Part shown: positions 19,508 through 25,080 of the stretch, in pieces | Position numbering within the stretch: position 1 is the first letter of the stretch | Layout: the number at the start of each line of letters is the position of its first letter | Source of the DNA: Litorivicinus sp. | Lineage (GTDB): Bacteria > Pseudomonadota > Gammaproteobacteria > Pseudomonadales > Litorivicinaceae | Reading direction: 5' to 3' | Length of the DNA stretch: 64,000 nt | Assembly (NCBI GenBank): GCA_018401755.1 | Contig: JAGYKJ010000006.1 | Coordinates: 474,184-538,183 of the forward strand | Program-made: the position numbers and the translations under genes | The notes under the pieces: generated by a model | What the model saw: only the letters and a program-made list of their open reading frames with translations | The model's database searches: none | Told to the model about the DNA's origin: nothing

Positions 19508-19684
19508 TTAACACCCGCCCAGCTCACACAGCGCGAGAGTGAACCAACGTCGATGTCCTGCGATCTGAGTGCGAATTTCTCGTATGTATTTTTTCGCCTG
19601 CTGTGCGCCCCAAGTGCAGGCGGTGTAATCCGTAATATCTTCTAAGTCAGCGTTGGCTCGCCGAGCATAGTTAATTGACTTCAC
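19508..19684 (-). pseudogene. parE: Truncated ParE-family toxin (58 aa), GTGA-overlapped with parD
   Basis: Own translation (not in supplied track): V/MKSINYARRANADLEDITDYTACTWGAQQAKKYIREIRTQIAGHRRWFTLALCELGGC*; N-terminal ParE pattern, C-terminal half missing. Confidence 0.7.
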
Positions 19685-19929
19685 TCACCAGTCGCCGCTT
19701 GATCCGCCCGTCGGTCCAGCGCATCCCAATCAATCTCATCGACGAAGCCGCTCACGTAGCCTTCTTCGATTGCATCGTTCAGCCTCTTGATCGCTGTTTG
19801 CTGCTGCTCAAACATCCGCAGCGCATCGCGCACAACCTCGCTTGCTGTGCCGTAGCGCCCAGTTTGAACCTGCTGAGCAATCAGTTCATCAAAGTGCTCG
19901 CCCAGTATGATTGATGTGGCTCTGCCCAT
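19681..19929 (-). CDS. parD: ParD-family antitoxin
   Basis: MGRATSIILGEHFDELIAQQVQTGRYGTASEVVRDALRMFEQQQTAIKRLNDAIEEGYVSGF; canonical ParD RHH. Confidence 0.88.
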   Translation of the reverse strand: MGRATSIILGEHFDELIAQQVQTGRYGTASEVVRDALRMFEQQQTAIKRLNDAIEEGYVSGFVDEIDWDALDRRADQAATGE

Positions 19930-20194
19930 TACAACCTCCATTGATTACCTAATAATATTTTTGTTACCCCCTTTCAGGTCAAGCCATGTGAAGTGGTTCA
20001 CTAAATCTGGATAGGCCGTTCACGGATTTTTGGACTAAAGGATTCCCCTGATTTGATGACTCCATCTTCTTAAGAAATAAAGGCTCCTGAAAACTTGGCG
20101 CGATTCAATTATTAGACTCGTTCAAAAATGGGGAGATTACGCACGTCTATCGGACCGCTAAAGTGGCTAACCCAGTTTGTCGGCTGACATCATT

Positions 20195-20650
20195 TTATGT
20201 ATTCCAGTTGGCTTTTGAACAGGCGAGCAATGCATCCCAATCATCAGGAGGGTGCCCAGATTTGAGCATTTTTTGAAAGACCATGTAAGGGTCGGTTTTG
20301 GCGCCGGATGAGCGCAAGGTGTTCTCGTCATTGACCCAAGCAAAGATGATGATCCGAGTCTTGGAATCAAAGCGAAAAAACAATCGAAAACGTCGACCGA
20401 TCTTGGCTCGACGCCAATGGCGAAACGTAGGTCCCATGGTGGTGCCTTGGCGGTATTCATCGCGATTAGGGTTGCGAGGGACCACTTCGAGAATCAGTGT
20501 CGCAAGCGTATTAAACAGTTTGACGTTGGCATTGGATTCGAAGGCCCTTGGATCTTGAGCCCTTGCACGCTGTACTGCTGCCGTCAATTTCTGTAGCTGC
20601 TCGATCAGGCAATCATGGAAAAGCAGAGTCCACCCGTTACGTTGAATCAA
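20195..20650 (-). CDS. yhaV: YhaV-family toxin ribonuclease
   Basis: NGWTLLFHDCLIEQLQKL..., NRDEYRQGTTMGPTFRHWRRAKIGRRFRLFFRFDSKTRIIIFAWVNDENTLR. Confidence 0.92.
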   Translation of the reverse strand: MIQRNGWTLLFHDCLIEQLQKLTAAVQRARAQDPRAFESNANVKLFNTLATLILEVVPRNPNRDEYRQGTTMGPTFRHWRRAKIGRRFRLFFRFDSKTRIIIFAWVNDENTLRSSGAKTDPYMVFQKMLKSGHPPDDWDALLACSKANWNT

Positions 20651-20967
20651 AGCACGACGTCGCCATCAATATCCGCGCTGAGCTCTACGCGCTTTCCAAG
20701 CGCTGCGAGCATGGAGCGTGCTAAGTCATCGGGCAGTGTGGTGATGTGTTGGCCGGCGCCAATATCTTTTTCCAGCAGAGCCAGAAAGCCTGTAATGGCC
20801 GGATCTTCGTGGTATTCCTCGTTTACGCGGGTGACGATGATGCTATCCCCTGTGAAATCAAAGGCGAGCTTTCCACCAGCATCCACGCCCAAAGCTTGAC
20901 GGATGGATTTGGGTATCGTGATCTGCCCCTTCGATGTCAGGGTCGCTATTTCGTGAATGGTGTGCAT
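20647..20967 (-). CDS. prlF: PrlF antitoxin (AbrB/SpoVT-like)
   Basis: ATLTSKGQITIPKSIRQALGVDAGGKLAFDFTGDSIIVTRV; 4-bp overlap with yhaV. Confidence 0.92.
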   Translation of the reverse strand: MHTIHEIATLTSKGQITIPKSIRQALGVDAGGKLAFDFTGDSIIVTRVNEEYHEDPAITGFLALLEKDIGAGQHITTLPDDLARSMLAALGKRVELSADIDGDVVL

Positions 20968-21051
20968 GACGGCTTCCTTAAAATTTAGGTCGAATGAAAT
21001 GTAAGGAATAATCCTTACTACGTCAAGACGCAGTTACAATGGTACCTATGT

Positions 21052-22204: not shown

Positions 22205-22556
22205 TGTTGAACTGTATCCTTATGGATACGTACTGGCAACTTGAAATCACTAAATCCCGAATTTCTAGCGTCACCCTCAACGTTTGCAGAGGTTTAGAGA
22301 TGAGGCTTGCGATAAGACGCAGTCTGAGCACCATGAAGGTGGCAATCGATTCAGGGGAGCTGTATCAATTTGGAAGTATCAAGGAGTGAATCGCCCCCGG
22401 TTTTCAGGAGGCTTCATTACTCGAGAAGATGGAGTTATGGAAACAGGAAACCCTTTACTTCGGAGATCCGTAAATGGTTAGCGGACGCGGATCCTCATGT
22501 CCGGAGCCCGCTCTATCTGGACGACCTCCGCTGTATAAGTCCGGAGACTGGTTTCC

Positions 22557-23790
22557 TTATAGCTCGTTGACGATTGGAAGCGTCTTTAGATGTGCGTCGA
22601 TAGTTTCAACAACATCTGAATGTATCGGCAGATGCGCCTTCTCCTCGTTCCACCGCTCCATGAAGATGGAAACGGTCTCCTGAGCCGTGCTCGAGACAAG
22701 CTTCGGTGGCAGAGCGGCCTTGGCAGCAAGGTGGTCAAGCTCGTCTTTATTCAACTCGTCAAAGCGCTTTGTGCGGCTGAAATTCAGGGCCGCCTGATCT
22801 CCGATGATGTAAGGGATTGTCGACACAAAATCGTAGGCAGGAGAGAGCCGGGGATGTCGTCCATCCGGATAGATCAGCGACCAATTTTTGAGGTGCATAT
22901 CACCGTTGCCGATCATCGTGTTGAAAATCAGGCGACGGATAAATTCTGCAACGTCCCTTGATTCCGTCTCAGAGGCAATGACTTGCGCAATGTTTGCTGA
23001 GCTTGCATTTTTATACTTCCGATCAGCAAAGACGCCATAGACCTGTGCAAAGTCTTCGATATGGATACGTTCTGCATCTTGCGCCCGGTCGAAGCGTTCA
23101 ATGACGAAGGCCTTGGCGCCTAGCCGATCAACACCAGGGGGGAGATTCCGGATGGAGGTCACATCAACGAGATCGATGGCAGGCACAGAAATTCCGACCA
23201 TGCGCGCCAGCGTCATCATCGAGAACTCGTTTTCGGGGACACCGCGATACTCATTAGACGGGAGCTTTACGATCCAGTCGCCTCCGACTCCGCGTACCGG
23301 AATGGTGAGGCCACCGCTTGTATCGGTGATGGCAGAAAATTTCATCTGTACGCCAGCGAGAGAAAAGCGCATGGCGTTTTCGTGAACGTCCGGGCTCTCG
23401 CCATCGTCCAGGTCGGTATCATCGAGGAGTGGCCAGGCTTCTCCATCGGCCGGTTCGACCGTTACTGCCCCTGGCAGATCGCGCCCCAAGACCCACATGA
23501 TGAAAAACTCTCTATCAGCGTGAACTTTGGCCTTCTCCGCGAGGTATTTCCGCAAATATCCCTCCGGCAGGAGGTTGGAGAAGAAGGGCATCAGCTTCAT
23601 CTGATACGCCCTGTGGTCCGTGATCAGGTCACCATGGATGTCTTTGAAGCTAAGGCTCAGGGTGCTCCGGTTGAGGATCGTTGACATAGCCGTCGGTAAA
23701 AGCAAAGACGGTCCTCTCGCCACCCAAGTAAGTCACCGTTCCAATCAATTGGCCGTGCAGTTTCACGTTGAGGGTGGAAACGTCAGGCAT
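22557..23790 (-). pseudogene. hipA: HipA-family Ser/Thr kinase toxin, frameshifted near 23672-23679
   Basis: Downstream frame: NRSTLSLSFKD...FSNLLPEG..., GVQMKFSA..., VERFDR, NGDMHLKNWSLIY. Upstream frame from ATG at 23790: MPDVSTLNVKLHGQLIGTVTYLGGERTVFAFTDGYVNDP; joined by one extra C. Confidence 0.88.
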
Positions 23791-24379
23791 CGTCGTCCTC
23801 ATCGAGTGAATAGGCCGGTCTCACGCGTTCGTCACTATGTGCAAGCTCCGTGCTTTGGGCGAGCTCCTTACTTAGATTTCGCATGAGGTCTTGGCTGCGG
23901 CTGAGTGCCTCCGGTTGCGTTAGTGGCTCTTTAATTTTTTCCAACGCCTGACGGAGCCGCTTTAAAGATTCCGGCGCTGCAAACTGCACCTGGAAGCGCT
24001 GAAGATCGGCGAAGCTCTTCTGCAGCCTCTTTACGGCGTCGAGAGCGGGTGACTCCATCTGCAGAATTCGTAAGCGTTCTGAAATGCGGTTCCATTCTTT
24101 AACGGCTTGCCCCAAAGCCTTCGAATCTTGGCCGCTCGTCTGCTTTGAGATCATTCGCACCGCAGGCAAAGCCTTGCGCGGTACAAGCGCAAGTTCCATC
24201 TCAAGTGCATGCGCAAGGGCGAGGAGACTGGTCGCGCGCGGATCGACAGAGCTCGCCTCGATACGCGAGATTTGGGCCTGCGGCACGCCAGAGAGATCGC
24301 TCAACTCGCGTTGGCTGATGCCTTTGGCAAGCCTTGCCTTCCTCAGATTCGCGGCTATTTCCTGGGCGCGATAGCTCAT
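23783..24379 (-). CDS. hipB: HipB-like Xre-family antitoxin with long C-terminal extension
   Basis: LRKARLAKGISQRELSDLSGVPQAQISRIEASSVDPRATSLLALAHAL; 8-bp overlap with hipA start. Confidence 0.88.
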   Translation of the reverse strand: MSYRAQEIAANLRKARLAKGISQRELSDLSGVPQAQISRIEASSVDPRATSLLALAHALEMELALVPRKALPAVRMISKQTSGQDSKALGQAVKEWNRISERLRILQMESPALDAVKRLQKSFADLQRFQVQFAAPESLKRLRQALEKIKEPLTQPEALSRSQDLMRNLSKELAQSTELAHSDERVRPAYSLDEDDDA

Positions 24380-24607
24380 ATCAATGTCTTTTTCTGCATC
24401 AAAACATTATTTTAATGTATTTTAAGATATCAATTTCTAAGAATTTTTCAATATTGATGTCGTTTGCGCCATCTTAATTAGCACGTGATGCAGTAATCAA
24501 CATCGACATGTAGATCTCCATCATACCATCGAGTCTGATAATCGCATTTGCTGTGGCGAATGAGAGTTTCCCCAATTCCCAAAGGAGTGGGGGGTCTCAG
24601 CGTCTAT

Positions 24608-25080
24608 AGTGGTCAAAAAAACAGACGCGATGTTAAGTCGTTGTTCAGTTCATGTAGAGGTAACATCCTGTTGGCTCGATGCGGCCACATCCAATGGTAG
24701 TGTCCCCAAAAGAGATCGATCGAGATCCCCTCGATCGATCACAGTAGTCTCATGACCGATTGATCGCTGCGCTTTGAACTGACTTGCTTGAGAGTGTCCT
24801 ATCAGCAATCGATCTCTCTTCGGGTGGAGAGGTAATCACAGATCCTGAAAATTTAACGTGTCCTAGTGTCAGGGGGTGCAGCGGTTCATACGCCCAAAAC
24901 AGCCACTAATTTTTGGGAATTTTTTGGGAATTGTTTTTACCGACAATTTCGCCCAAAACTTGCGCGGCTAAAATTTTTAAGTAATTAATAATATTGAAAT
25001 TAATGGCGCGCCCGAGAGGATTCGAACCTCTGACCTTTGCCTCCGGAGGGCAACGCTCTATCCAGCTGAGCTACGGGCGC
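24608..25080. repeat. Diverged direct repeat, copy 2 (ends in intact tRNA-Arg)
   Basis: Alignable with 21052..21510: agtggtcaaaaaaac...gttgttcagttcatg...ccactaatttttgggaatt...cgcccaaaacttgcgcggct...taatggcgcgcccgag. Confidence 0.8.
25004..25080 (-). tRNA. tRNA-Arg(CCG)
   Basis: GCGCCCGTAGCTCAGCTGGATAGAGCGTTGCCCTCCGGAGGCAAAGGTCAGAGGTTCGAATCCTCTCGGGCGCGCCA; complete cloverleaf, anticodon CCG, encoded CCA. Confidence 0.96.

Follow-up and report, generated by a model that had tools for sequence, protein, structure and literature searches.

Four toxin-antitoxin loci beside a tRNA-Arg gene of Litorivicinus sp. and related arrays elsewhere in the genome

The toxin-antitoxin loci and their surroundings

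In a 64,000-nucleotide stretch of DNA from Litorivicinus sp., of the marine family Litorivicinaceae (hereafter the window; G000:C5:474184-538183), a cluster of toxin-antitoxin (TA) loci lies beside a gene for tRNA-Arg(CCG). The genome, designated G000, is a 2.19-Mb assembly of 7 contigs; it was taken as targeted stretches, and the open reading frames (ORFs) of its arrays were annotated in part. Sister species and congeners used for comparison are likewise G-numbered. TA families were identified by means of Pfam and NCBIfam profiles, and tRNAs by means of ARAGORN and Rfam RF00005. As shown in Table 1, these profiles placed all four loci on the minus strand beside the tRNA, in agreement with an earlier note on this DNA, which had described four unrelated TA families standing together there.

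Table 1. Features of the window (window positions) and of the other arrays (contig positions in G000)
Feature	Position	Strand	Evidence or remark
Truncated ParE toxin, 58 amino acids (aa)	19508-19684	minus	Pfam; profile positions 1-36 of 89 only
ParD antitoxin	19681-19941	minus	PF03693, TIGR02606
IS3-family element 5'-end remnant between yhaV and parD	20005-20107	minus	Inverted relative to 22359-22478
YhaV toxin, overlapping prlF	20195-20650	minus	PF11663, E=1e-56
PrlF antitoxin	20647-20967	minus	PF15937 (Pfam), above cutoff
Distal copy of tRNA 3' flank, ending in IS3-family transposase 3' remnant	21048-21429	minus	Alignment
IS3-family transposase 3'-end remnants	21048-21207 and 24604-24762		Homologue at G000:C6:258301
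Decayed full-length tRNA-Arg(CCG) copy, distal attachment-site (att)-like	21429-21507	minus	85% over 79 bp
HigA-type antitoxin, HI1420 family	21590-21904	minus	PF21716 and TIGR02684 above cutoff
HigB/RelE-type toxin, HI1419 family	21908-22204	minus	TIGR02683 above cutoff; Pfam Gp49 slightly under cutoff
IS3-family element 5'-end remnant between hipA and higB	22359-22478	plus	79-81% to G000:C6 copies with orfA
hipA toxin kinase with a frameshift near 23690	22557-23802	minus	HipA_C E=3e-51; Couple_hipA
hipB-like helix-turn-helix (HTH) antitoxin, 198 aa	23783-24379	minus	Pfam HTH_3; couple_hipB weak, under cutoff
Proximal tRNA 3' flank, ~400 bp, outer edge an IS3-family transposase 3' remnant	24604-25003	minus	Alignment
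Intact tRNA-Arg(CCG) that anchors the array	25004-25080	minus	ARAGORN; Rfam RF00005, 69.6 bits
tRNA-Phe array	C5:304766-325112		Seven partial tRNA 3'-half copies besides the intact tRNA
tRNA-Cys array	C6:307621-312594		Three tRNA 3'-half copies
guaA array	C4:109974-117306		Five TA operons: RelE-HTH, higBA, parDE, AbrB/PIN, hipA

All four loci belong to type II TA families, and two of them are intact. The prlF-yhaV pair has PrlF upstream, both proteins scored above the profile cutoffs, and the two ORFs share 4 bases. The higBA pair is of the HI1419/HI1420 type, with the toxin gene followed by an HTH antitoxin, and scored 119.9 bits (TIGR02683) and 121.5 bits (TIGR02684), both above cutoff. In the parDE locus, ParD is intact and ParE covers no more than the first third of its profile; a continuation was not evident in the three frames inspected. 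In the hipBA locus, the hipA reading frame is shifted within the N-terminal domain and the kinase domain is otherwise complete: in a three-frame view, the N-terminal frame (23650-23802) runs into a stop and the kinase frame (22557-23690) opens at about 23690. These are the two lesions that the earlier note had reported, and judged from sequence, two of the four modules (parDE and hipBA) look inactive. When plasmids were searched with the whole cluster, informative relatives were obtained for hipBA only, namely hipBA on alphaproteobacterial plasmids at ~68% DNA identity; many of the remaining plasmid matches were probably to the tRNA.

The tRNA-Arg gene was found to be duplicated together with ~430 bp of its 3' flank (21048-21510 and 24604-25080; 75% over 474 bp, tRNA included). 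The two copies bracket higBA and hipBA, and the right edge of the duplication ends at the tRNA 5' end. The alignment score of the decayed tRNA copy was 53, compared with a maximum of 14 in ~1000 random placements; with the Rfam tRNA model, the copy reached 22.8 bits, which is under the family cutoff. The earlier note had recognised neither an integrase nor a transposase in this region. Its statement about integrases held, in that no PF00589 match lies inside this or the other arrays described below, but its statement about transposases did not, in that IS3-family remnants were found.

The tRNA-Arg locus in related genomes

The relatives are mostly metagenome-assembled genomes (MAGs) or single-cell genomes, and all comparisons were made between species. 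Among the sister genomes that have a contig at this place, most show the same right flank (cytochrome c - nagZ - rep) after tRNA-Arg. On the left, a marker block at C5:459277-463391 matches LSUCC0096 (G001) and HIMB30 (G009) in order, and the ~36 kb between this block and the tRNA is thus a variable segment in G000; its species-variable genes include TRAP transporters and a sulfite dehydrogenase-like region. The anchor tRNA is therefore conserved at a syntenic place, and the content of the locus differs between species at that same site. Left of the array, window positions 2991-16106 hold two TRAP transporter sets (DctP, DctM and one DctQ were found), and a further TRAP set at C5:468544-471409 is 60-84% identical to tRNA-Arg-locus cargo of G008 and G012.

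On the 3' side of the intact tRNA-Arg, LSUCC0096 carries two and HIMB30 carries three tRNA 3'-half copies, each with the same exact 46-47 bp and each followed directly by a conserved sequence, here called the arm. This core-plus-arm pattern at tRNA-Arg was limited to those two of 25 genomes and was absent from G000; the repeats are exact in LSUCC0096, HIMB30 and the tRNA-Phe and tRNA-Cys arrays of G000, and the window holds a decayed full-length copy. In LSUCC0096 and HIMB30, the copies bound metabolic cargo, namely copper resistance genes, TRAP and TTT transporters, and cytochromes. The PF00589 search placed no integrase in the sister tRNA-Arg stretches, and among the cargo proteins scanned there were no families of integrative and conjugative elements (ICEs), integrative and mobilizable elements (IMEs) or prophages.

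The window TA proteins had no match at the tRNA-Arg loci of the relatives read, with one exception: a short contig of G006 has the same junction of decayed tRNA and higA, but with a thiF-type gene as the left neighbour. Apart from this junction, none of the relatives read presented the four loci in the same order away from the tRNA or repeats, an arrangement that the earlier note had said would mark ancestral chromosome. Its suggestion of a TA accretion hotspot on the tRNA 3' side is supported by a syntenic locus with species-specific content and tRNA 3'-half repeats between units, and the comparisons support tRNA-Arg(CCG) as a hotspot common to the genus. Also, tRNA-Arg 5'-half remnants lie at a distance of 1-7 kb from the intact gene, on its 5' side, in G004, G019, G020 and G021 (L043, L042, L045 and L052, respectively), and hence inserts lie on both sides of the same tRNA-Arg.

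The earlier note had alternatively proposed that the TA loci form an anti-excision belt stabilising a larger island to their left, and the ~36 kb of species-variable genes on that side could be taken as such an island. We regard this as very unlikely. No distal att copy of tRNA-Arg was detected left of the cluster, where a search beyond parE out to 40 kb yielded nothing above shuffled sequence; the ~36 kb is instead variable cargo of the same hotspot. Moreover, two of the four modules that would make up the belt look inactive.

The structure of the repeat also bears on a different history, in which the tRNA-Arg region was duplicated in tandem and higBA and hipBA arrived later by IS3-family transposition or illegitimate recombination, and not by a site-specific process. 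A repeat that spans the whole tRNA and 430 bp, with an IS3 end at its outer edge and inverted IS3 5'-end remnants between the TA pairs, is consistent with such events. We nevertheless consider them unlikely, given that the right edge of the repeat ends at the tRNA 5' end, that the decayed-tRNA/higA junction recurs in G006 beside another left neighbour, and that the tRNA-half pattern is present in other arrays and in sister species.

Other arrays in the genome

When TA families were searched over 22 congeners, G000 gave 2 YhaV, 4 HI1420, 4 HipA and 8 ParE matches; the most complete sister genomes gave 0 or 1 match per family, and G003 and G006 carried 2-3 HipA. Twelve of the 18 matches to these four families in G000, more than chance would place there, fall in four array regions that together make up less than 2% of the genome, one of which, the guaA region, was chosen on account of its TA matches. 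Together with the window cluster, arrays anchored at tRNA-Phe, tRNA-Cys and guaA (Table 1) bring the TA arrays of G000 to at least four. Arrays were located via TA-family and tRNA searches, by which those with other cargo or other anchors in G000 may be overlooked.

The tRNA-Phe, tRNA-Cys and guaA arrays consist mostly of single TA operons spaced by repeats of 100-130 bp, each made up of the 3' end of the anchor gene and a conserved arm. The arms vary from anchor to anchor, but those belonging to the same anchor mostly resemble one another at 68-87%. Of the tRNA-Phe copies, five keep an exact match of 45-46 bp, another has been shortened to 38 bp and the last is 85% identical. The intervals between four of these 3'-half copies each contain a single operon (prlF-yhaV, parDE or higBA), and the array also includes a truncated higA. 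Near tRNA-Phe 3' halves, a 105-aa ORF with an HTH-like look and no Pfam match occurs twice (L186:84-401 and 11299-11616), and its two copies enclose genes of pqq-like and ABC transporter type that may form a larger metabolic unit. The tRNA-Cys copies separate an xis-like/PIN pair, a Phd-like/VapC pair, a short interval, and a stretch in which an HI1420 antitoxin precedes a nucleotidyltransferase/HepT pair. In the guaA array, the toxin of the higBA pair was detected by Pfam under cutoff and its antitoxin by the family search. Within this array, 290 bp from the 3' end of guaA are also duplicated (88% identical; L174:9708-9997 and 13719-13996), analogous to the duplication of the tRNA and flank in the window, and short-core insertion does not explain a repeat of 290 bp.

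In the stretches read, 3'-half copies were present at only three of the 37 tRNAs, namely tRNA-Arg(CCG), tRNA-Phe and tRNA-Cys. All three had a TA match within 20.5 kb downstream, compared with 2 of the 34 others (p=0.0013), a distance that was fixed after the tRNA-Phe array had been seen; within 9 kb downstream, the counts were 2 of 3 and 2 of 34 (p=0.026).

The closest relative, G007 (MAG WB5_5_146), is 89% identical to G000 in the neighbouring cytochrome c. In G007, tRNA-Phe is intact and is adjoined only by the 3' ends of yhaV and higA, joined as in G000. At guaA, there is one TA operon in G007 versus five in G000, and the hipBA and PemK-type toxin genes of G000 at C4:133k correspond to a hipA 3' end in G007. 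The differences could mean that G000 received insertions or that G007 underwent losses, and both readings fit recombination at the repeats. That related arrays are collapsed or short in the closest relative is a further point against the anti-excision belt.

The collapsed arrays are also relevant to what we see as the main rival explanation, namely that successive larger elements (prophages or ICEs) entered at the same tRNA and were deleted down to loss-resistant TA modules, which would then be fossils and not mobile cassettes. The truncated parE, the frameshifted hipA, the truncated higA of the tRNA-Phe array and the IS3 remnants are in keeping with such erosion, as are the retention in G007 of 3' fragments only of yhaV, higA and hipA and the integrase-bearing insertions beside tRNA-Leu and tRNA-Ser in G000. 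However, the tRNA-Phe and tRNA-Cys units are compact and most have a complete core and arm, which random deletion would not repeatedly leave, and in sister species this architecture recurs around metabolic cargo, again with no integrase found. We view this explanation as possible but doubtful; residues and insertions can both be partly true.

Tandem TA cassettes with imperfect repeats of 100-130 bp further resemble a sedentary chromosomal integron, in which cassettes with attC sites are inserted by IntI. The repeats, however, are the 3' ends of tRNAs or guaA with an arm, and not attC. Five of the six sites tested fold no better than shuffled sequences (z-scores of -0.29, -0.21, -0.67, +1.35 and +1.85; the guaA site had -2.18), and the single-strand folding of attC was thus not seen. 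No intI was found near the arrays, with no PF00589 match inside them. An integron-type array is accordingly most improbable.

Proposed origin and relation to known systems

Taken together, these data make it probable, in our view, that the window cluster is an array of TA operons, old and partly decayed, which arose through repeated site-specific insertion on the 3' side of tRNA-Arg(CCG), mediated by a trans-acting recombinase. Each unit would comprise a cargo operon and one recombination site (the anchor-gene 3' end plus an arm of ~70 bp), and a repeat would remain between units because each inserted unit brings one such site. Since no array encodes a detected recombinase, the likeliest agent would be a tyrosine integrase supplied in trans by a phage or integrative element, presumably acting on circular intermediates. 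The four tyrosine recombinase matches (PF00589) in the genome, which were not classified in detail, all lie outside the arrays. Tyrosine recombinases of the genus include integrase genes at C6:690827-691972 and C6:285093-286307 of G000 and one near position 125955 of C10 in G009, besides XerC/D. TA pairs may then be retained through addiction, because loss of a pair is proposed to release its toxin, and decay would instead affect passenger genes, integrases and IS elements. The window units may have entered by the same route as those of the other arrays, with arms that are no longer recognisable; the membership of the window array rests on the decayed tRNA copy, the junction shared with G006 and the fact that the tRNA is a hotspot.

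Several points weigh against this interpretation. Within the window, no arm motif can be recognised, the repeated stretch comprises an entire tRNA with 430 bp and not a 46-bp half, each unit holds two TA operons, and the IS3 remnants offer an alternative entry route; a tandem duplication followed by insertions could account for the array. A helper integrase was not identified. In the other arrays, some units are not clean single TA operons, as seen in the tRNA-Phe metabolic segment and the 290-bp guaA duplication, and the after-the-fact choice of the 20.5-kb distance bears on the association of TA matches with tRNA copies. Finally, G007 is an 89% complete MAG whose tRNA-Arg contig starts at window position 25408, which precludes the comparison that would tell most about the window locus.

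Why chromosomes collect TA modules is debated, with selfish addiction, stabilisation, defence and mere residue all having been put forward. In the present arrays, the scars are readable and the loci of sister species, with other cargo or near-collapsed arrays, can be compared, so that single TA operons, separated by recombination scars at several loci, give a direct reading of how each TA unit was gained, lost or decayed. G000 appears to stockpile TA pairs much like an integron, with no integron integrase detected. More tentatively, its units might be minimal cassettes, each a TA operon with a site formed by a host-gene 3' end and an arm, in an integron-like stockpile that lacks an integron integrase; it is equally speculative that such cassettes were inserted in tandem at tRNA-Arg, tRNA-Phe, tRNA-Cys and guaA and moved in trans by recombinases encoded elsewhere. 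If the units are mobile, they would represent a second, integron-independent way to stockpile TA cassettes.

Integrative elements, ICEs and IMEs that target tRNA genes or guaA are known to use such target genes and to duplicate their 3' ends. In contrast to these elements and prophages, no integrase was found in the arrays, and there are no phage or conjugation genes among the annotated units. In architecture, the arrays correspond to additive flexible genomic islands, which carry tRNA direct repeats and are already known from Alteromonas (PMC4119200), Actinomarinales (PMC7771536) and Methylopumilus (fGI-2; PMC10872708): a conserved tRNA is the target of successive cassettes, partial-tRNA direct repeats mark the ends of inserts, and the place is fixed while content varies between strains. 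Such islands are reported to carry genes for metal resistance, hydrogenase or the envelope, or genes that are mostly unknown (PMC4119200, PMC7771536, PMC10872708). In contrast, the arrays of G000 hold mainly TA operons, use three tRNAs and guaA in one genome, and have a conserved arm beside the repeats. Neither such loading with TA operons nor any tRNA-anchored array composed mainly of single TA operons, at several tRNAs and guaA, was found in the literature searched, which was mostly without subscription journals.

Alteromonas integrons commonly contain TA cassettes (PMC4119200), and TA-rich sedentary chromosomal integrons have also been described elsewhere (PMC11023631). Such integrons share with the present arrays the tandem TA cassettes and the single recombination site per unit; they differ in that the arrays have neither an adjacent IntI nor attC-like folding and draw their sites from tRNA or guaA 3' ends. 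Tycheposons are likewise tRNA-bounded cargo islands of streamlined marine bacteria, but they are described with a tyrosine recombinase (PMC10872708), whereas in the arrays the tRNA boundary is present and no tyrosine recombinase was found.

Two other tRNA genes of G000 have integrase genes nearby. At C6:284954-306271 (L179:4955 to L178:1275), a 43-base copy of the 5' part of tRNA-Leu(TAA) is followed directly by an integrase-like gene of 404 aa; the copy lies 21 kb from the intact tRNA-Leu and probably marks an integrative element that entered from the tRNA 5' side. At C6:684000-696433 (L180), near a contig end, tRNA-Ser(TGA) has an integrase gene on its 5' side, and another tRNA with the same Rfam score is located at the start of contig C4 (C4:188-275).

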